From assembly GCF_000166415.1 (NCBI RefSeq), contig NC_014654.1, positions 2,356,001 through 2,420,000 on the forward strand: a DNA stretch of 64,000 nt. The letters run 5' to 3'. Positions 10,098 to 52,183 of the stretch are shown here, piece by piece; within the stretch, counting starts at the first letter, position 1; each line of letters begins with the position of its first letter. The translations under genes were made by a program, and so were the position numbers. This stretch comes from Halanaerobium hydrogeniformans (GTDB lineage: Bacteria; Bacillota; Halanaerobiia; Halanaerobiales; Halanaerobiaceae). The notes beneath the pieces were generated by a model. It did no database searches. It saw nothing but the letters and a program-made list of their open reading frames with translations, and was not told the DNA's origin.

Positions 10098-10889
10098 TTA
10101 TTTATAATTAGCTAAAACTTTTTTTATATTTCTTACGAATTCTCCTGCATTCTCCAGTTTTTCTTTTTCTGTTTGTCCGGCTGTAATAGCTTTTATTAAG
10201 GCACTGCCGATGATAATCCCATCCGGATAATCAACAATCTTTTTAACTTTTTCTGGACCATCGATTCCAAAGCCCAGTCCAAGGGGGATATCTCCTGCTG
10301 TTTTTCGAACTCTTTTTAAATAACTTTCTAATTTTGGATATGGACCTCTAGCATCACCGGTAGTTCCCAATAAAGCAACACAATAAAGAAAACCAGAGCT
10401 TAAACTACTTATTTCTTTTAAACGCTCATCTGATGTATTAGGAGTAACAAGCAAAATCTGATCTAAATCCGCCTCTTTTAAATAATATGATAATTTAGCT
10501 TTTTCATCAACCGGCAAATCCGGAATAATAACTCCGGAAACTCCTGCTTTTTTAATAGCTTCTACAAATTCTTTTTCCCCATAATTTAAAACCGAATTAT
10601 AATAACCCATTAAAACCAGCGGAACCTTAACTTTATCTTTAATGTCTGTCAGCATCTCAATTAACTTTTTTAGAGTACATCCATTTTTTAAAGCACGCTG
10701 TGAAGCCTCCTGAATAACAGGGCCATCTGCAAGTGGATCAGAAAATGGGATCCCGATCTCTATAATATCAACCCCCTCATCCTGAAGGCGATAGATTAAT
10801 TTTTCGGTCATTTCCAGACTGGGATCTCCTCCACTAATATAGGTTATTAACGCTTTTTTGTTTTTAAATTGAGCTGTTATTTTAGACAT
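10098..10889 (-). CDS. trpA: Tryptophan synthase alpha subunit
   Basis: Cleaves indole-3-glycerol phosphate to indole and glyceraldehyde 3-phosphate; pairs with TrpB. The protein is 263 residues when begun at the ATG at 10889, where the standard N-terminus [20 protein letters not shown] appears; a longer frame exists but overlaps trpB unreasonably. Catalytic Glu and Asp are in [18 protein letters not shown] (near residue 43), and the phosphate-binding loop is [13 protein letters not shown] (near 205). The start overlaps the trpB stop by 8 bp, so the two are translationally coupled. Last gene of the operon. Confidence 0.96.
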
Positions 10890-12105
10890 TTTCTTCTGCC
10901 TCCTTAACCTTTTTGAAATTATTGATATCTTTATCTCCCCGACCCGAGAGATTAACAACTATAATCTTCTCCTTAGATAGCTGAGGAGCTAATTTTTCCA
11001 GATAAGATAAGGCATGTGAGCTTTCAAGAGCTGGAATAATCCCCTCTTTTTCTGATAATAGTTTAAAAGCTTTAATAGCCTCAATATCAGTGGCAGAATG
11101 ATATTCTACCCTTTCAATTGTTTTTAAATAACTATGTTCAGGTCCAACCCCAGGATAATCCAGACCTGCAGAAATAGAATAAGCTGGAATTATCTGTCCA
11201 TCTTCATCTTGAAGCAAAAATGATTTACTGCCATGTAAAACCCCAACCCTTCCAGCAGAAAGAGTTGCTGCATGTTTTCCACTTTCAATTCCTTTACCAG
11301 AGGCTTCAATCCCGATCATCTTAACTTCTTTATCATTTATAAAAGGATAAAATATACCCATCGCATTACTTCCGCCCCCAACACAGGCTAAAATATAATC
11401 AGGAAGACAACCTTCTTTGGCTTTGATTTGTTTTTTGCATTCATCACCAATTATTCTTTGAAAATCTCTAACCATCATTGGATAAGGATGGGGCCCAACT
11501 ACAGAACCGATAATATAGTGGGTATCTTCAACATTACGCACCCAATCCCTGATAGCTTCATTTGTTGCATCTTTAAGGGTTTGAGTCCCTGAATTAACTT
11601 CAGTGACCTTAGCTCCTAACATTTCCATCTTATATACATTAAGAGCCTGTCTTTCCATATCTTCTGCCCCCATGTAAATTTCACAATCTAAATTAAATCG
11701 AGCTGCAACGGTAGCAGTAGCTACACCATGCTGTCCAGCACCAGTCTCAGCAATAATCCTTTTTTTACCCATTTTAACTGCCAGTAATATCTGACCTAAA
11801 GTATTATTTATTTTATGAGCACCGGTGTGATTTAGATCCTCTCTTTTTAGGTATATTTTAGCTCCCCCATAATATTTGCTCAATTGTTCAGCATAATATA
11901 AAGCGGTGGGTCTTCCACTATAATCTGCTAAGAGTGATTTTAATTGTTTTTTAAAAGCAGGATCATTTTTATAGTGATTATAAACCTCTTCTAATTCATC
12001 TAGAACCGGTATCAAGGTTTCTGGAACAAAACGACCTCCAAATTCAGAAAAATAACCTTTATTTAAATCATTTTTTACTCTCAATTTTTTTGCCTGATTT
12101 CTCAT
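10882..12105 (-). CDS. trpB: Tryptophan synthase beta subunit
   Basis: PLP enzyme that condenses indole with serine to tryptophan. It is a TrpB1-type protein of about 407 residues: [17 protein letters not shown] near the start, the PLP lysine in [18 protein letters not shown], the substrate loop [13 protein letters not shown] and the glycine-rich phosphate loop [10 protein letters not shown]. The AAGGAG ribosome site is too close to the first ATG (12111) but 8 bases from the second (12105), which I prefer. It lies between trpF and trpA. Confidence 0.97.
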
Positions 12106-12145
12106 AATCATTACTCCTTTCTAATCTGATACCCTTTTAATTAAC

Positions 12146-12784
12146 TTAATGATTGTTTTTTTCAAAGGCTCTTATCTTTGCAATGGTTTTGTTTATAAGT
12201 ACTTCATTTTTAATACCTGGAGAACTTTCCAGCTGACTATTTAAATCTACAGCTGCAGGTTCTAAGGTTTTTAAAGCAAGTTCAATATTTTGCGGCCCTA
12301 AACCACCTGCTAAAATGAAATTATTCTTAACAGCTTTATCTTTAAGCAGTGACCAGTCAAAACTCTGACCTGTACCCCCAATTTGTTCAGCAATTTTAGT
12401 ATCAAATAAAAAATAATCCACAATATTTTTGTACCTCTTCAATCTATCCAGGTCTTGAGCTTCATTAATAGAAATAGCTTTAATTGTTTTAAGAGGTGTT
12501 TTTTCTATCAATAAAGGTGATTCATCACCATGAAACTGAATATAATCAAAAAGTCTGCTTGCCAGTATTTTTTCCAGCTCATTGTCCTGAGGATTTACCA
12601 CTACAGCAACCCTATTAATAAATGGAGGTAGATCTTTAGTAAGTTCTTTTGCCTGGGCCAGAGTTATCTGCCTGGGACTTTTAGCAAGTATAAAACCAAG
12701 AGCATCAACTCCTGATTCAACAGCAAAGTCAACATTTCTTTTTAATGTCATCCCACATAATTTAATCATTACTCTAGAACTCAT
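12146..12784 (-). CDS. trpF: Phosphoribosylanthranilate isomerase
   Basis: Amadori isomerisation of N-(5-phosphoribosyl)anthranilate, third step of tryptophan synthesis. A 212-residue beta/alpha barrel beginning with the family signature KLCGMTLKRNVDFAVESG (catalytic Cys in LCGM); QFHGDES near residue 85 and the catalytic Asp in FLFDTK near 128; the C-terminal phosphate site ILAGGLGPQNIELAL near 158. The gene starts 3 bp after the trpC stop with an AAGGAG ribosome site. Separate from trpC, as in Bacillus and unlike the enterobacterial trpC-F fusion. Confidence 0.96.
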   Translation of the reverse strand: MSSRVMIKLCGMTLKRNVDFAVESGVDALGFILAKSPRQITLAQAKELTKDLPPFINRVAVVVNPQDNELEKILASRLFDYIQFHGDESPLLIEKTPLKTIKAISINEAQDLDRLKRYKNIVDYFLFDTKIAEQIGGTGQSFDWSLLKDKAVKNNFILAGGLGPQNIELALKTLEPAAVDLNSQLESSPGIKNEVLINKTIAKIRAFEKNNH

Positions 12785-12787
12785 TTT

Positions 12788-13540
12788 CTAATTCTCCTTT
12801 TTGATACCCAACTCTTTTATTTTAGTTGCTGGGTCTTCAGCCCTCATCAGTGTTTCTCCGATAAGAACTCCATCTACACCCAGCTCTTTTAAATAACTTA
12901 TATCTTCAGCACTTTTTATTCCACTCTCGGCAATAATATAATAGTTTTCACGTCGAGCCTTCTCTTTTAATAATTTGAGCAGTTTAGAAGTTGTCGATAA
13001 ATCTACTTCAAAATTATTTAAATTTCGATTATTGATACCAATTATTTCTGCATCACTTTTTAAGACCATTTCTAATTCTGACTCATTATGAACTTCTACT
13101 ATTACCTCAAGTTTTAATTTTTCAGCAGTACTTAAAAGTTCTTTTAACTGATCTAAATCTAAAACAGCTGCAATTAACAAAATAACATCAGCGCCAATAA
13201 AGAAACTTTCATAAACCTGAAGTGGATCAATTATGAACTCTTTACGTAAAATCGGTAAATCGGTTAATTTTCTTAAGGATTCTAAAAGTTGATTACTTCC
13301 CTGAAAAAATTTTTGATCTGTCAGAACAGAAATTGCTGAAGCTCCACCGGCCTGATAAGCCATTAATTGTTCAACAGGTTTAAAATCTTTTCTAATCAGA
13401 CCTTTACTGGGTGATGCTTTTTTTATTTCAGCTATTAAACTTAACTGCTCTTCTTTTAATTTTTGCTTTAAAGAATGTCTGCCTTTTTTTAGTGCTTTAA
13501 CTTCTTTTTCTTTTTCTTTTATTATCTTATCTAAGATCAT
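12788..13540 (-). CDS. trpC: Indole-3-glycerol phosphate synthase
   Basis: Ring-closing decarboxylation that yields indole-3-glycerol phosphate. A 250-residue beta/alpha barrel with LIAEIKKASPSKGLI near residue 34 (catalytic Glu and Lys), VLTDQKFFQGS near 76, LRKEFIIDPLQVYES near 97 (catalytic Lys), and the late motifs GINNRNLNNFEVD and ESGIKS. The start lies 2 bp after the trpD stop. Standard family length. Confidence 0.96.
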   Translation of the reverse strand: MILDKIIKEKEKEVKALKKGRHSLKQKLKEEQLSLIAEIKKASPSKGLIRKDFKPVEQLMAYQAGGASAISVLTDQKFFQGSNQLLESLRKLTDLPILRKEFIIDPLQVYESFFIGADVILLIAAVLDLDQLKELLSTAEKLKLEVIVEVHNESELEMVLKSDAEIIGINNRNLNNFEVDLSTTSKLLKLLKEKARRENYYIIAESGIKSAEDISYLKELGVDGVLIGETLMRAEDPATKIKELGIKKEN

Positions 13541-13542
13541 CG

Positions 13543-14559
13543 CTAAACCACCGCATTACTACAACTGACAAGTTCATTCAATTTAGCTTTTGCTTTTCCA
13601 GAGTCAATGATTTCAGCTGCAAGTTCTACTCCTAATTTTAGCTGTGAAACTTTATTGTGGACCAAAAATGCCGCTGCTGAATTAAGGAGAACCACATCTC
13701 TTTTAGGGCCGTTTTTACCATTTAATATATCAAGAGTTATCTGTTTGTTTTGTTCTGGTGCTCCACCCAGGATTTTAGTTATTGGAGCAAAACTCAAGCC
13801 TGCATCTTCTGGTGTGAAATTAAATTCTTTTATTTCTCCATCTTTTAAATAAGCAGTTTTGTTTAATCCTGCCAGAGATAATTCGTCAATCCCACCTGCA
13901 CCATGAACTACCATAGCAGATTTTAAACCAAGATTTTTTAGCACATGGGCCAGGGGCATTACTAGTTCCTCCTTATATACACCAAGAATCTGATAATCTG
14001 CTCGAGCTGGATTTGTAAGTGGTCCCAAAATATTAAATATAGTCCTTAAGCCAAGTTCTTTACGAGGCCCAACAGCATATTTCATCGCCTTATGAAAATA
14101 GGGGGCAAATAAAAATGATATTCCAATTTGGTCAAGGCATTTTGCGGCTGCCTCAGGACTTAAATCAATTTTTACTCCCAGTGCTTCTAAAAGATCAGCA
14201 CTTCCACTCTGAGAAGATACTGAACGATTACCATGTTTAGCAACATTTAACCCACCTGCTGCCATAACAATCGCGGTTGTGGTAGAAATATTAAATGTAC
14301 CTTTTTGATCTCCACCTGTTCCACAGCTGTCTATTAAATCTACAGCAGAAGTATTAACTTGAGCAGCTTTATTTCTCATTACACTTGCTGCCCCTGTAAT
14401 TTCATCTATGCTTTCACCTTTCATTCTCAAAGCAATTAAAAAGGCTGCTAACTGACTATCTGTTGTTTTACCTTCCATTACCATTGACATCGCATCTTCC
14501 ATCTCAGCTAAGCTTAAATTCTCTCTGCTAACTACCTTTGCTAAATGTTTATTAAACAT
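13543..14559 (-). CDS. trpD: Anthranilate phosphoribosyltransferase
   Basis: Transfers phosphoribosyl from PRPP to anthranilate. 338 residues, with the PRPP-binding loop DSCGTGGDQKGTFNISTTTA near residue 77, KHGNRSVSSQSGSADLLEALG near 105, and the anthranilate-contacting arginine region GPRKELGLRTIFNILGPLTNP near 162. A stand-alone TrpD, not fused to TrpG. It follows trpG by about 27 bp within the same operon. Confidence 0.96.
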   Translation of the reverse strand: MFNKHLAKVVSRENLSLAEMEDAMSMVMEGKTTDSQLAAFLIALRMKGESIDEITGAASVMRNKAAQVNTSAVDLIDSCGTGGDQKGTFNISTTTAIVMAAGGLNVAKHGNRSVSSQSGSADLLEALGVKIDLSPEAAAKCLDQIGISFLFAPYFHKAMKYAVGPRKELGLRTIFNILGPLTNPARADYQILGVYKEELVMPLAHVLKNLGLKSAMVVHGAGGIDELSLAGLNKTAYLKDGEIKEFNFTPEDAGLSFAPITKILGGAPEQNKQITLDILNGKNGPKRDVVLLNSAAAFLVHNKVSQLKLGVELAAEIIDSGKAKAKLNELVSCSNAVV

Positions 14560-14586
14560 TATCTCTCCTCCTCTATACTATCTACT

Positions 14587-15159
14587 CTAATTTTTATTGG
14601 TTATAAAATTTTCTAAAATTATTTTTCCTGCTTCTGTCAAAATAGATTCCGGATGAAACTGAACTCCATATACTGGATAATCTTTGTGTTTAATAGCCAT
14701 TATTTCTCCTTTTTCTGTTTCTGCTAATATATTTAATTCTTCAGGCAGATTTTTTTTGTTGACTAAAAGCGAATGATAACGAGTTGCAGAAAAATTATTA
14801 TCGATTCCTGCAAATAATAGATTATCCTTATCAAGCAGATTAATCTTGGAAACTTTACCATGAACTAGCTCATCAGCTATTACAACTTCAGCTCCAAAAA
14901 CCTCAGCAATACACTGATGGCCTAAACAAACTCCTAATATCTCAATTTTATCTTTAAAATAGTCTATTATTGTTTTAGAAATTCCTGCATCATCTGGCCG
15001 GCCAGGCCCAGGAGAAATAACTATCTTATCAGGTGCCATAATAGCAATATCTTCTACTGAAATTTTATCATTACGGATAACTTTTACCGTATCAAATTCT
15101 TCCAAAATATGAACCAGGTTATAGGTAAAAGAATCATAATTATCTATTACTAAAATCAC
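14587..15159 (-). CDS. trpG: Anthranilate synthase glutamine amidotransferase subunit
   Basis: Supplies ammonia from glutamine to TrpE. Class I glutamine amidotransferase with the triad visible: Cys in LGVCLGHQCIAEVFG near residue 80, and His and Glu in YGVQFHPESILTEAG near 168. An ATG at 15168 abuts the GAGAGG ribosome site, so translation more probably begins at the GTG at 15159 (190 residues, MILVIDNYDSFTYNL). The start overlaps trpE by 20 bp. No para-aminobenzoate synthesis genes are nearby, so the trp role is the natural one, though TrpG may also serve PabA. Confidence 0.94.
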   Translation of the reverse strand: MILVIDNYDSFTYNLVHILEEFDTVKVIRNDKISVEDIAIMAPDKIVISPGPGRPDDAGISKTIIDYFKDKIEILGVCLGHQCIAEVFGAEVVIADELVHGKVSKINLLDKDNLLFAGIDNNFSATRYHSLLVNKKNLPEELNILAETEKGEIMAIKHKDYPVYGVQFHPESILTEAGKIILENFITNKN

Positions 15160-16648
15160 GGATACCATCCTCTCTAACTACTTTTAGTGCATCAAATAAA
15201 GCTCTCCCTTTATTTAATGTTTCCTGATATTCTTTCGCTGGATCAGAATCTGCAACTATACCTGCACCAACCTGTAGGTTGAGTTTCCCATCTGTCAGCG
15301 AAAAAGTTCTAATTGTTATACAGCTATCAAGATTACCATTAAAACTTAAATACGCAACAGTTCCAGCATATACTCCTCTTGCTTCTTTTTCCAGGTCATT
15401 AATTAATTCTATAGCTTTTATTTTAGGTGCTCCAGAAACAGTACCAGCTGGGAAAACTGCCTTAAGAACATCAAGACTGTCCAGCCCTTCTTTTAAGTCA
15501 GCTTCTACCTGAGAAACAATATGCATCACCTTTGAATAATACTCAACTTCCATCAATTCTGTTACCTCAACACTGGAAGGAGCTGCAATTCTACTTAAGT
15601 CATTTCTACCTAAATCAAGCAACATGGTGTGTTCAGCCTTTTCTTTTTCATCACTGAGTAGATCAGTTTCTAATTCAAAATCTTCTTTTTTGTTTTTTCC
15701 TCTGGGCCTGGTACCTGCTAAAGGACGCGTCATAACTCTATTGTCTCTAACCCTTACTAATACCTCTGGTGAAGACCCAATAATTCTTGTTTCAGGAAAG
15801 TTCAAATAAAAAGAATATGGTGATGGATTTACTGAACGAAGAGCCCGAAAAATTTTAAATGGAGGTAGGTCATTTTCTATAGAAAATTTTTGCGAGAGAA
15901 CAATCTGAAAAATATCCCCCTCTCTAATATGCTCTTTTGCTTTTTTAACCATTTCTTCAAATTCTTCTTTACTGGTATTTGATATTAATTCAGCTTTTTC
16001 ACTACTGTATCTTTCACCAACAACTGCCATTTTGCTTTTAGTATTTTCAATTTTATCTTTTAGTTTTTTAAGTTCAAATTGAGCCTGAGCATATAACTTT
16101 TTCTTTTCTTCTAAACTCAAATCTGCCTCTAACTGCAGATTGTTGATTATCTTAACTGTATTATGCAGATGATCATAGGCTAAAATCATTTTAGTCATGA
16201 CTAAAATACTTAATGGCTTATCATCTTTTATCAAACTTTTACCCTTTTCAGCATGGAATATATCTTCCCATTTTTCTATCATTTCATAATTAAAATAGCC
16301 AACAAACCCTCCTGAAAAAGGTGGGAGTTTTTCATTTTGATATACACTAATATTATTTAAATAATTTTGTAAATAAGAAATTAAATCTTGATCACACTTT
16401 TTTTCTATTTTACCCTGTTTTAGGATTTCAAAATAGTCTTTGTGATTTTTAAAAACTGCTGCTGGTTCTAAACCAATAAAGGAATAGCGATCATTTTCTG
16501 AACTTTCCAGTAGATAGGAATAATCTTTATCAGCTGCCAACTTTTTGTAAAGAGAAATTGGTGTTTCAGTATCAGCTATAAATTCATCATAAATAGGAAT
16601 AATATCATATTTTTCTGCCTGTACTAAAAACTCTTTTAAATTTATCAT
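15140..16648 (-). CDS. trpE: Anthranilate synthase component I
   Basis: Converts chorismate to anthranilate; first committed step and usual target of feedback inhibition. 502 residues from the ATG at 16648, chosen because GGGAGG lies 5 bases upstream and the protein then starts MINLKEFLVQAEKYD. The N-terminal regulatory half contains LLESSENDRYSFIGLEP, the Leu-Leu-Glu-Ser region that forms the tryptophan site in TrpE. The C-terminal chorismate-binding half has EHIREGDIFQIVLSQKF, RPLAGTRPRG, GRNDLSRIA and TVSGAPKIKAIELI. First gene of the operon, preceded by a 300-base attenuator leader. Confidence 0.96.
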   Translation of the reverse strand: MINLKEFLVQAEKYDIIPIYDEFIADTETPISLYKKLAADKDYSYLLESSENDRYSFIGLEPAAVFKNHKDYFEILKQGKIEKKCDQDLISYLQNYLNNISVYQNEKLPPFSGGFVGYFNYEMIEKWEDIFHAEKGKSLIKDDKPLSILVMTKMILAYDHLHNTVKIINNLQLEADLSLEEKKKLYAQAQFELKKLKDKIENTKSKMAVVGERYSSEKAELISNTSKEEFEEMVKKAKEHIREGDIFQIVLSQKFSIENDLPPFKIFRALRSVNPSPYSFYLNFPETRIIGSSPEVLVRVRDNRVMTRPLAGTRPRGKNKKEDFELETDLLSDEKEKAEHTMLLDLGRNDLSRIAAPSSVEVTELMEVEYYSKVMHIVSQVEADLKEGLDSLDVLKAVFPAGTVSGAPKIKAIELINDLEKEARGVYAGTVAYLSFNGNLDSCITIRTFSLTDGKLNLQVGAGIVADSDPAKEYQETLNKGRALFDALKVVREDGIRDFSNR

Positions 16649-16688: not shown

Positions 16689-16727
16689 AAACAAAAAACG
16701 GCCAAAGCTTATATAAAGCCTGACCGT
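16689..16727 (-). terminator. Second (promoter-distal) intrinsic terminator in the trp leader
   Basis: On the minus strand ACGG...CCGT closes a 12-bp, slightly imperfect stem (16698-16727) followed by TTTTTTGTTTT. It lies only about 40 bases before the trpE start codon, so it must be bypassed for expression and is a candidate second attenuation point. Confidence 0.75.
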
Positions 16728-16840
16728 AGAATTTAAAATTTAATATTATTGAGTTATAGACAGATTATTTTTAGTTTAATAGTTTAAAAAGCTCTAAAAA
16801 AAGTTAAACTGCTCCCTTATTTAAACTAATTATCTAAACT

Positions 16841-16875
16841 AAAAAAACAAAAACCACGCTGTTATACCAGCCTGG
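16841..16875 (-). terminator. First intrinsic terminator of the trp attenuator
   Basis: On the minus strand CCAGGCTG (16868-16875) pairs with CAGCGTGG (16854-16861), with one mismatch and a short loop, followed by TTTTTGTTTTTTT. It begins 5 bases after the last (G/U)AG triplet of the leader. Confidence 0.85.
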
Positions 16876-16880
16876 CCCCT

Positions 16881-16950
16881 CTAAATAATCTATCTGCTCA
16901 TCTAATCTCAACTAAATCTCATCTCTACTAAGCTGGGCTCTTCTCATCTC
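16881..16950 (-). promoter_or_regulatory. Run of twelve (G/U)AG triplets in the trp leader: candidate TRAP (MtrB) binding site
   Basis: Read on the minus strand, the first 75 bases of the trp transcript contain, in order, GAG GAG GAG UAG GAG GAG UAG GAG UAG GAG UAG UAG. The spacers are 2, 2, 7, 2, 2, 3, 2, 2, 2, 4 and 6 bases. The Bacillus TRAP 11-mer binds eleven (G/U)AG repeats with 2-3-base spacers. The single 7-base spacer is CCCAGCU, and CCAGCUU (16931-16936 plus neighbour) can pair with AGGCUGG of the downstream terminator 5' arm. It would thus form an antiterminator that TRAP binding would melt. Structure and order match the B. subtilis trp attenuator; binding itself is inference. Confidence 0.75.
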
Positions 16951-16961
16951 TAATTTTTTTA

Positions 16962-16990
16962 AGTATATAAGATTATGATAATCTTGTCAA
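16962..16990 (-). promoter_or_regulatory. Sigma-A promoter of the trp operon
   Basis: TTGACA (16985-16990) and TATACT (16962-16967) on the minus strand with a 17-base spacer. The start of transcription is expected near 16955, so the triplet run begins within the first few bases of the RNA. Confidence 0.9.
16969..16985. promoter_or_regulatory. 17-bp perfect palindrome filling the trp promoter spacer: possible repressor operator
   Basis: AAGATTATGATAATCTT (plus strand) is an 8-1-8 perfect inverted repeat lying exactly between the -35 and -10 elements. A protein bound here would block RNA polymerase. The regulator is unknown. Confidence 0.5.
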
Positions 16991-17199: not shown

Positions 17200-17943
17200 T
17201 TATAGGATCATAAATCCCATTAATATTCCAATTAGTATTCCTGCATTAGCAAAGTGACTGTGTATATTATTTGACTGGGGTATTAGTTCATCATTCACTA
17301 TATAAAGCATAGCACCAGCTGCAAAAGCCAGTGAAGCTCCTACAAACAGGGCAGAAATATTGAAAAAGAATTGGGCTATTATAGTACCTAAAGGTATCAT
17401 AAGCCCAGCAAATAATGTAAATAATAATATTTTAGTATTAGAAGCTCCTCCAGATTTTAAAGGCCCTGCTATTGCTAAACCTTCCGGTATATTGTGCAGT
17501 CCAATTGCCATTGCAATATACATTCCTGCTTCTGGACTTGATTCAAAACCTGCTCCAATAGCCAAACCTTCTGGTAAATTATGGAGAGCTATCCCCAAAA
17601 AGATTAAAAAACCTGTTCTTAGAAGTGGAGACTGTACTTTCAATTTTTCTGGATTTTCTGTTACTAAATGGCCAGCAGAAGACAGGTGAGAGTGAGGTAA
17701 CAATTTATCAAAACTGTACATTAGAAGCGCTCCTAAAATAAATGCCACAACCGTATTTGTTAATGATGATAATTCAAGTGCTTCCGGAAGCAGTTCAAAT
17801 ACTGAAATTGCCGTCATAATACCTGCAGCAAAACCGATTAAAATCGCTAATATCTTTTCACTTGGCTCACCAAAGATCATCAATATTACTGCTCCAAGCG
17901 AAGTTGATAAACCAGCTAAAAAACTATACATTAAAGTACTCAT
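17200..17943 (-). CDS. ZIP-family divalent metal transporter (paralogue 1)
   Basis: A 247-residue inner-membrane metal importer with about eight hydrophobic segments and a short His-containing cytoplasmic loop (PHSHLSSAGH). The two metal-site helices carry HNLPEGLAIGAGFESSPEAG and GLHNIPEGLAIAGP, the ZIP family binuclear-site signature of the GufA/ZupT group. It is closely similar along its full length to the gene immediately upstream and clearly arose by tandem duplication. The ribosome site GGAGG precedes the ATG. Likely Zn2+, Mn2+ or Fe2+; specificity is not readable from sequence. Confidence 0.93.
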   Translation of the reverse strand: MSTLMYSFLAGLSTSLGAVILMIFGEPSEKILAILIGFAAGIMTAISVFELLPEALELSSLTNTVVAFILGALLMYSFDKLLPHSHLSSAGHLVTENPEKLKVQSPLLRTGFLIFLGIALHNLPEGLAIGAGFESSPEAGMYIAMAIGLHNIPEGLAIAGPLKSGGASNTKILLFTLFAGLMIPLGTIIAQFFFNISALFVGASLAFAAGAMLYIVNDELIPQSNNIHSHFANAGILIGILMGFMIL

Positions 17944-18043
17944 CTTTATACCTCCAGAAATAAATAATATTTGCTAGAAAAAGGGCTCCTACTGCGATTA
18001 AAACCAATACAGCACCAAAAGCCCTTTTGTATTTACTCGATTC

Positions 18044-18787
18044 CTATAATATTGTAAAGCCCATTAACAAACCACCAATCATGCCTGCATTGGCAAAATG
18101 ACTGTGCATATTATTTGACTGAGGTACTAATTCATCATTTACAATGTAAACCATCGCTCCAGCTGCAAAAGCCAGTGAACCTCCAACAAATATCGGTGAT
18201 ACATTAAATATAAACATTCCAATCATGGTACCCAAAGGTGTCATAAGACCAGCTAAAAGAGTAAATCCAAATAACATAGCTGTTTTAGTACCACCAGATT
18301 TTAAAGGTCCTGCTATAGCAAGTCCTTCCGGAATATTATGGAGAGCAATTGCCATTGCAATATAAATACCTGCTTCTGGACTTGACTCAAAACCTGCTCC
18401 AATCGCTAACCCTTCTGGTAAATTATGGAGAGCTATCCCCAAAAAGATCAAAAACCCTGTTCTCAGCATCGGATCTTTAACTTTTAATTTTTCCGGGTTT
18501 TCCACTTCTAACTTTTCCGAAGATGAAAGATGAGAATGAGGAACAATTTTATCAAGGCCAAACATCATAAATGCACCCAATAAAAACCCGATTAACGCTA
18601 TCCCAAGTGAACCAAGCTCGACCGCTTCTGGCATTAATTCAAATACAGAAATCGCCAGCATAATACCTCCAGCAAATCCCAGCAAAGATGCTAATACTTT
18701 TTTGCTCGGTTCACCAAATATAATCAATACAAAAACTCCAAGTGAAGTTGATATTCCAGCTAAAAAACTATACATTAACGTGCTCAT
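18044..18787 (-). CDS. ZIP-family divalent metal transporter (paralogue 2)
   Basis: Upstream member of the tandem ZIP pair, also 247 residues, with the same HNLPEGLAIGAGFESSPEAG and LHNIPEGLAIAGPLKSGG metal-site motifs and loop histidines in IVPHSHLSSS. Most differences from paralogue 1 are conservative and fall in the outer helices. The 100-bp gap to paralogue 1 includes a 9-bp inverted repeat (AAAGGGCT/AGCCCTTT with a 30-base loop) and the next ribosome site, so the two are probably co-transcribed. The upstream region is very AT-rich and no convincing metal-responsive operator could be assigned. Confidence 0.93.
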   Translation of the reverse strand: MSTLMYSFLAGISTSLGVFVLIIFGEPSKKVLASLLGFAGGIMLAISVFELMPEAVELGSLGIALIGFLLGAFMMFGLDKIVPHSHLSSSEKLEVENPEKLKVKDPMLRTGFLIFLGIALHNLPEGLAIGAGFESSPEAGIYIAMAIALHNIPEGLAIAGPLKSGGTKTAMLFGFTLLAGLMTPLGTMIGMFIFNVSPIFVGGSLAFAAGAMVYIVNDELVPQSNNMHSHFANAGMIGGLLMGFTIL

Positions 18788-34003: not shown

Positions 34004-34046
34004 CATTGAAGGTAGAGTAAAATTAATATAAATCATTAAAAATAAT

Positions 34047-34143
34047 ACTCCTTTCCATTCCGGGAGGCCAATCCGTTTCCAAATTGACCCTATCGGCATA
34101 TTTCCCATAATAACTAAATTACTCAGGTAAATATACTCGGAGT
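34047..34143 (-). ncRNA. Molybdenum/tungsten cofactor (Moco/Tuco) riboswitch
   Basis: On the minus strand the aptamer opens with ACTCCGAG and closes with AAAGGAGT (P1: ACTCC/GGAGT). It contains CCGATAGG, a 10-bp stem capped by a GAAA tetraloop (GGTCAATTTG/CGGATTGGCC), and then CTCCCGG before GGAAAGGAG, the order of conserved elements of the Moco RNA motif. A terminator follows. The tungstate transporter downstream fits the tungsten-cofactor variant class. A covariance-model search (Rfam Moco) would confirm it. Confidence 0.85.
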
Positions 34144-34164
34144 TTTTTGATTATTTCAAATATA

Positions 34165-47432: not shown

Positions 47433-47489
47433 TATAGTTTAAGCTATATAATAACCTTACTGTTCTTGTGACCGAAGAGACAGTATAAA

Positions 47490-47681
47490 ATAATTCGGCA
47501 GGTCTCCTGGCTTCTGCTCAAAAAGACTTATACCTTCCCTGTTAATTAAAATTAACAAGTGGTTAAAAAAGTCTTTGCAAATAATCACTTAGATGATTAT
47601 TTAAACAGTTACAGTGGCGGGCCCGCTCAGGTTTTTCACCTGATTCCCTATTCTCCCTTAACTATAGTTAAGGGCACCCAA
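47490..47681 (-). ncRNA. Cobalamin riboswitch
   Basis: The minus strand shows the full set of conserved B12-aptamer elements in order: GGGTGCCC at the 5' side, AGGGAATCAGGTGAAAAACC (near 47635), GAGCGGGCCCGCCACTG (near 47615), GGGAAGG, and the B12 box AAGCCAGGAGACCTGCC (47497-47513). A terminator follows, so ligand binding is expected to stop transcription of btuFCD-btuB and the hydrolase. Confidence 0.96.
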
Positions 47682-47804
47682 TTATTAGCAAATATTTAGT
47701 TTTGTGTTCAAAGAAAAAAATAATTCTTGATTTATAATAAAATAGTAATACAATATAGTTAGAAAAGCTCTTTTTTGCCTTTATAAAAGAAAAGGGGGAA
47801 AATC

Positions 47805-51035: not shown

Positions 51036-51082
51036 TCTGTACCTCCATTAATTGTTTTTAATATAGCTTAGTTTAGTTTAGT

Positions 51083-52183
51083 TTAGCTTTGATTTAATAT
51101 TTTCTTTAAATTATTAATTAAAAGCTCATTATTTTTACGGTCTTTTATAGCAATCCGAATATAATCATCTTCTAAACCATTATAACTATCACAATTTCTG
51201 ATCATTATTTTTGATTCTAATAATTTATTCTGCAATTTTTTTGCACTAAGTCCTGTCTCACTAATATCTATAAATATGAAATTAGCATTTGCCTTAAAAA
51301 CTTTTAAATCCTCAATTTGCTGCAGATTCGAATATAGGTAGTTTTTTTCTGCAGCTATTTTTTTAAAACTTTTTTCAAGGTATTGTTCAATCTCTTTTCT
51401 TTCTGTAAAAATAATTTCAGCAGCCAGTTGAGCAAAGTAATTAACAGACCAGGGATCTCTATTTTTTTCTAAGTCTATACTTATATCCTCTGCTGCCAGA
51501 GTATATCCCAAGCGCAAACCGGGTAAAGCAAATAATTTAGTCAGCGAACGCATAATAATCAAGTTAGAATACTTATCTAAAAGTTTTAAAGCTGTATAAT
51601 CTTCAGCAGCCGAAAGAAAGTCTATAAAAGCTTCATCAAGCACAAATAAAATATCTTTAGCACTGGCTGCAGCAAGTATCTCTTCAATTTTATTTAAATT
51701 TAACAAAGCACCAGTTGGATTATTTGGATTACAGATAAAGATTAAATCTATGTCTTCAGAAAGCTCTGCAATAACTTTTGTGCTGTCAATTTTAAAATCA
51801 TTTTCTTTTTTAAGCTTAAAATGACATACTTCTGCACCTATGCTTTTTGCAGCTAGTTCATATTCAGAAAATGTAGGATCTACAACCATAACTTTTTTTG
51901 GTTTTAGCACTTTTGTAATCTGATAAATTAGTTCTGATGCTCCACTGCCAACTGTAACACTCTGTTTACTAAGCTGATGATGCTCAGCAATTAATTTTTT
52001 AATTCTTTTGGCATTAGCTTCAGGATAATTTTCAATTCCTTTAACATTTCTTTTTATTTCGTCTAAGATAATTTCTGGAGGCCCCAAAAAATTTATGTTT
52101 GCACTAAAATCAATTAATTCTTCAGGTTCAAACCCACTCTTTTTTGCAGCTTTGATTAAGTTTCCTCCATGAAGATGTTCCAT
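51083..52183 (-). CDS. cobD: L-threonine-O-3-phosphate decarboxylase (CobD)
   Basis: PLP enzyme that yields (R)-1-aminopropan-2-ol phosphate for the cobalamin side chain. 366 residues: HGGNLIKAAKKSG at the start, FSANINFLGPP near 28, CNPNNPTGALL near 151, and the PLP lysine in RSLTKLFALPGLRLGY near 212. It resembles histidinol-phosphate aminotransferases, but HGGN at the N-terminus and operon context favour CobD. The ATG at 52183 lies inside pduX: the two genes overlap by 56 bp, in different frames. Confidence 0.9.
   Translation of the reverse strand: MEHLHGGNLIKAAKKSGFEPEELIDFSANINFLGPPEIILDEIKRNVKGIENYPEANAKRIKKLIAEHHQLSKQSVTVGSGASELIYQITKVLKPKKVMVVDPTFSEYELAAKSIGAEVCHFKLKKENDFKIDSTKVIAELSEDIDLIFICNPNNPTGALLNLNKIEEILAAASAKDILFVLDEAFIDFLSAAEDYTALKLLDKYSNLIIMRSLTKLFALPGLRLGYTLAAEDISIDLEKNRDPWSVNYFAQLAAEIIFTERKEIEQYLEKSFKKIAAEKNYLYSNLQQIEDLKVFKANANFIFIDISETGLSAKKLQNKLLESKIMIRNCDSYNGLEDDYIRIAIKDRKNNELLINNLKKILNQS

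Follow-up and report, generated by a model that had tools for sequence, protein, structure and literature searches.

How expression of the trp operon is regulated in Halanaerobium hydrogeniformans is the question raised by a leader region rich in (G/U)AG triplets. A first-pass annotation had read this leader as an attenuator of the TRAP (MtrB) type. We analyzed the locus within a 64,000-nt stretch of the chromosome (the window), together with the remaining genome and the corresponding loci of relatives. The placement of the DNA in the order Halanaerobiales was correct, and the named neighbours belong to Halanaerobium: Halanaerobium polyolivorans (TrpE 89% identical), H. kushneri, H. saccharolyticum and H. 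congolense.

Organization of the trp leader

The promoter, the leader elements and the genes of the operon are all located on the minus strand of the window:

16962..16990 (-), trp promoter: -35 TTGACA at 16990-16985, 17-nt spacer, -10 TATACT at 16967-16962
16881..16952 (-), TRAP-site-like array of the trp leader with 12 non-overlapping (G/U)AG triplets
16841..16877 (-), terminator T1: stem 16877-16852, then U5GU7 at 16853-16841
16693..16727 (-), terminator T2: stem 16727-16698 (ACGGUCAGGCUU..AAGCUUUGGCCGU), U-run 16698-16693
15140..16648 (-), trpE: 502 aa, ATG at 16648, Shine-Dalgarno (SD) sequence GGGAGG at 16659-16654
14587..15168 (-), trpG: glutamine amidotransferase subunit
13543..14559 (-), trpD: anthranilate phosphoribosyltransferase
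10098..13540 (-), trpC, trpF, trpB and trpA: remainder of the operon, names assigned from sequence features

The promoter matches the consensus at 11 of 12 positions, and a promoter-like sequence similarly precedes the trp array in congeners. Because of this position, transcription is likely to start within about 10 bases of the beginning of the array. Further upstream, two tandem and closely similar ZIP-type transporter genes occupy window positions 17200-18787 (-), and the tail of a similar ZIP-type gene seems to sit upstream in congeners as well.

The minus strand from 16952 to 16879 contains 15 (G/U)AG triplets if overlaps are counted and 12 if they are not, which reproduces the twelve triplets of the first-pass annotation. 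A register of 11 triplets can be assigned (GAG16950, GAG16945, GAG16940, UAG16930, GAG16925, GAG16920, UAG16914, GAG16909, UAG16904, GAG16899 and UAG16892) with spacers of 2, 2, 7, 2, 2, 3, 2, 2, 2 and 4 bases, and the twelfth triplet follows 6 bases past the eleventh. This register, which depends on taking GAG16925 and not UAG16927, fits an 11-subunit ring. The 7-base gap CCCAGCU, previously described as the only long one, is indeed the longest, but gaps of 4 and 6 nt also exceed three bases. A close pair was defined as a triplet followed by the next triplet at a spacing of 2-3 bases; the leader holds 8 close pairs within 80 nt, while the maximum in 100 dinucleotide shuffles of the 64-kb strand was 6. 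With 11-12 triplets and spacers mostly of 2-3 nt, the leader has the composition of a TRAP attenuator, for which about 9-11 triplets are expected.

The expected terminator ahead of the first structural gene is present twice. T1, the intrinsic terminator recognized from the outset directly after the triplets, consists of a stem and a U-rich tail (-14.7 kcal/mol, z -5.1); across nine congeners five of its pairs are changed on both sides and 98.9% of the alignment cells are paired. T2 had been overlooked and is located ahead of trpE, ending about 35 nt before the SD sequence of this gene. Its fold is comparable (-14.5 kcal/mol, z -5.1) with 96.5% of cells paired, compensatory changes occur in L015, L017 and L019, and the hairpin is kept throughout the genus and in three leaders of another family (L016-L018). 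Neither hairpin was detected in a consensus terminator scan, probably owing to a mismatch or bulge.

Many other clostridial trp operons are under T-box control, and a T-box or a ribosome-mediated leader-peptide attenuator next to incidental triplets would be an alternative explanation. An Rfam scan of the window returned no T-box, and the only leader open reading frame with a Trp codon is a TTG-start frame of 25 residues that contains a single Trp and has no evident ribosome-binding site. Both absences agree with the first-pass annotation and, taken with the mtrB gene and the conserved array described below, make such an attenuator highly improbable. The Rfam scan also identified a cobalamin riboswitch at window positions 47480-47696 (-) and a molybdenum/tungsten cofactor riboswitch at 34032-34154 (-).

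The mtrB gene and the array in relatives

A search of the genome for the mtrB homologue that the first-pass annotation had proposed to look for yielded a PF02081 match at G000:C1:2022054-2022254 (E 7e-37). The 76-residue product resembles solved TRAP structures (matches at 1e-22 to 1e-48), is 52% identical to a Bacillus subtilis TRAP sequence and retains the RNA-contacting Lys/Lys/Arg as invariant residues in an alignment that includes this B. subtilis sequence. The gene is flanked by the 3' end of the DNA polymerase III alpha gene and by pfkA (names from sequence). It was found in 32 of 38 genomes of the order, and the five genomes of genus g17 without mtrB likewise gave no trpE match. In addition, trpE directly follows mtrB in L029 and in Natroniella, and mtrB adjoins trpB in L004. 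As 152 of 299 sampled genomes of the phylum carry mtrB, its presence here is less surprising; control by TRAP stands, but the surprise implied in the earlier annotation was overstated. A small conserved protein (MWQVLYIASS...) is encoded directly 3' of mtrB in three genomes (L001:1273-1479, L002:1282-1488, L003:1730-1903), and its copy in the window genome has no Pfam match. No gene for anti-TRAP (rtpA) was found on searching this genome; a candidate match fell within a 377-residue DnaJ-like frame and was rejected.

A TRAP-like array precedes trpE in nearly all relatives, which cover several families of the order, and alignment of these leaders bears out the conservation of the triplets. The 13 Halanaerobiales leaders all contain 5-10 close pairs upstream of trpE, whereas 62 of 64 regions preceding trpE in other groups, used as a negative control, contain 0-4. 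The two exceptions, Mahella (L138) and a Bacillota MAG (L128) with 8 and 7 close pairs, are both Bacillota and show that TRAP-like arrays precede trpE outside Halanaerobiales too. Some genera have a site at the trpE start codon that replaces or adds to the leader site (L020, L023, L027). Near positions 130-216 (trp orientation) of L021, L024 and L026, which are three related species, an AG-rich triplet cluster is found upstream of trpE at the start of a gene whose product has a dehydrogenase-like N-terminus (MERIRVAIVGYGNLGRG).

The presence of mtrB and the conservation of the triplets support the reading as a TRAP-type attenuator, and the trp leader is very probably a tryptophan-sensing transcription attenuator run by this protein.

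Predicted pairing of the array with T1 and T2

Attenuation of this kind would involve an antiterminator that competes with the terminator. Two segments of the leader are considered here:

16925..16940 (-), candidate antiterminator 5' strand GAGCCCAGCUUAGUAG, within the array and including its longest gap
16716..16743 (-), predicted T2 antiterminator 3' strand, formed by the sequence preceding T2 and the T2 5' arm; can pair with array positions 16940-16913

The first-pass annotation had proposed that CCAGCUU in the array pairs with AGGCUGG in the 5' arm of T1. This pairing is not conserved: the sequence in seven congeners reads CCCAGAUU or CCUAGAUU. Nor does T1 stand out as a partner of the array strand, since within the genus 20-36% of shuffled partners equal its pairing. 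A convincing T1 antiterminator was thus not found in the window species by the shuffle test. A different result was obtained for T2. The 5' strand GAGCCCAGCUUAGUAG is conserved in nine distinct sequences from two families, and the array strand GAGCC(C/U)AG(A/C)UUAGUAG is complementary to CUACGGUCAGGCUU, which spans the T2 5' arm together with the bases ahead of it. In the window, the duplex reaches -17.9 kcal/mol compared with a shuffled mean of -9.8, and 1.7% of shuffles attain this value; in 13 of 14 leaders, 6% or fewer of the shuffled partners do so. When the array is aligned against CUACGGUCAGGCUU, 89.7% of cells pair, and at most 44% when the strands are slid.

Covariation was not observed for the array-T2 duplex (no double changes, and the shuffle control was not exceeded) because its strands hardly vary, and the evidence for this antiterminator is rated as moderate for that reason. 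A strand-swap test, in which non-cognate combinations of array and T2 scored equal to cognate ones, is unable to tell species apart because both strands are nearly invariant. Since the array beats shuffled partners for T2 and, within the genus, not for T1, the main antiterminator target of the window array is most likely T2, with T1 as an added terminator, and control of T2 by the array through the shared strand is moderately favored by the pairing data. In three leaders of a third family (L021, L024, L026) that have their own first terminator, 0.4-2.4% of shuffles reach the pairing of the array strand with that terminator.

TRAP could instead govern T1 alone, as in the first-pass annotation, with T2 being a separate element that answers to another regulator or simply reduces expression. 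T1 is closer to the array and shows clear covariation, and in the window species CCAGCUU is able to pair with AGGCUGG. On the other hand, it is T2 and not T1 with which the array strand outperforms shuffled partners in the genus, L016-L018 combine a TRAP array with a U-run solely on a T2-type hairpin, with which the same array strand pairs, and the window leader yielded no further regulator or RNA family. A restriction of TRAP to T1 is therefore rather unlikely.

For the favored arrangement, in which the array serves T2 as well, we infer TRAP binding, tryptophan dependence, termination and, further downstream, a translational block. When tryptophan is plentiful, Trp-loaded TRAP would wrap the triplet array as it emerges and prevent the strand GAGCCCAGCUUAGUAG from pairing downstream, T1 and T2 would fold, and transcription would stop ahead of trpE. 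When tryptophan is scarce, the array would be free and its gap strand could base-pair with the T2 5' arm and the bases preceding it and also, less convincingly, with T1, allowing transcription to continue.

Further candidate targets and comparison with Bacillus subtilis

A second array is found inside the operon:

14503..14589 (-), second TRAP-site-like array, spanning the trpD SD sequence (GAGGAGG) and the first trpD codons

With six close pairs and 15 triplets, the trpD start is an extreme outlier among the 58 gene starts of the window; at most two pairs occur at the other 57. The triplets overlap the SD sequence, as in a translational TRAP site, and the array is conserved in the genus. As GAG is inherent to SD sequences, the array could simply have arisen from an AG-rich ribosome-binding site together with the codons for a conserved N-terminus. 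In line with this, resampling of synonymous codons revealed only a modest excess within the coding sequence, with p about 0.004-0.15 for the majority of species in the genus and 0.5 for two. Yet most of the trpD triplets precede the start codon (7-11 within 60 nt across the genus), where diverged sequence retains (G/U)AGCUGAGAUGAG-like runs, the close pairs far exceed those at the other window starts, and trpP, trpE, trpD or trpB make up nearly all high-scoring starts in the fetched loci. We consider such an origin improbable and control of trpD by TRAP, judged from these patterns, quite likely. On read-through mRNA, TRAP bound to the second array over the ribosome-binding site would then block trpD translation.

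Targets elsewhere in the genome were sought by pattern only. The pattern KAGNNKAGNNKAGNNKAG gave 10 matches in six places of the 2.6-Mb genome, namely the trp leader, trpD, trpP, a stand-alone trpB, a nadA paralogue and one antisense site. A pattern match alone proves little, as the reversed pattern gives 8 matches compared with 10. The antisense site lies in a cob/his-type region. At window positions 51064-51086 (+), a run of five perfectly spaced UAG triplets is antisense to flanking genes of cobalamin or histidine type and is probably a chance U/A-rich repeat. A stricter pattern of five triplets had nine matches in 12 Halanaerobium genomes, of which trpP and the trp leaders accounted for three each, the nadA paralogue for one and other places for two; a mixed-spacing search had two matches. 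Gene starts provide independent support. Among 235 gene starts in the fetched loci, those with at least four pairs were nearly all trpP, trpD, trpE, trpB or the nadA paralogue; in this control, loci fetched by pattern are biased and loci fetched by homology are unbiased.

The candidates differ in their conservation. Sites at the transporter gene trpP recur in most Halanaerobiaceae relatives, and this gene is in all likelihood controlled by TRAP. The stand-alone trpB site is present throughout the genus and makes the same control likely there; in both cases TRAP would block ribosomes as proposed for trpD. The nadA paralogue, a diverged second gene for NadA (quinolinate synthase) located after nadC, has 7-8 (G/U)AG triplets upstream of its start (L052:1448-1555; L063, G000:C1:420908). 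The array is found in both species with a close orthologue, and triplet density is kept in otherwise diverged upstream sequence, so that TRAP control of this gene is conceivable at slightly below even chances. It is a tentative and rather doubtful proposal that one TRAP array governs two tandem terminators via a shared strand and that the regulon also reaches the nadA paralogue, which would link tryptophan status to NAD/quinolinate metabolism.

The trpEDCFBA leader of B. subtilis contains 11 (G/U)AG triplets and mutually exclusive antiterminator and terminator structures before trpE (PMC3913778), and the 11-triplet register and the mtrB gene described here follow this model. B. subtilis has one attenuator and a hairpin that sequesters the trpE SD sequence (PMC11255114), whereas Halanaerobium has two tandem terminators, of which the second stops about 35 nt short of the SD sequence and is followed by a U-run. 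TRAP also represses translation of trpG, trpP and ycbK in B. subtilis through triplets over the ribosome-binding site (PMC11255114). Such triplets are likewise present in Halanaerobium and trpP is common to both, but trpG is part of the operon here and the internal site is at trpD, and the stand-alone trpB and the nadA paralogue carry arrays as well. Neither these two genes nor an internal trpD site are mentioned as targets in the accessible papers; a literature search found no report of TRAP in Halanaerobiales, with key subscription papers outside reach. The anti-TRAP (RtpA) system would act on the same TRAP, and rtpA was not found here.

As judged from sequence comparison, the locus represents the Bacillus TRAP mechanism in a variant arrangement, in which the terminators are in tandem and the set of targets differs in part. 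It extends the system to a halophilic order of anaerobes that can be compared in good depth and in which the same protein appears to be rewired. Some genera have tandem terminators and others have sites at the trpE start, with trpD inside the operon, a stand-alone trpB and the transporter gene as further candidate targets. This rearranged target set, rather than the presence of TRAP, is the part worth following. How TRAP terminates transcription in B. subtilis is disputed (PMC3913778), and the Halanaerobiales offer a natural series for testing both its mode of termination and the evolution of an RNA-binding regulon.
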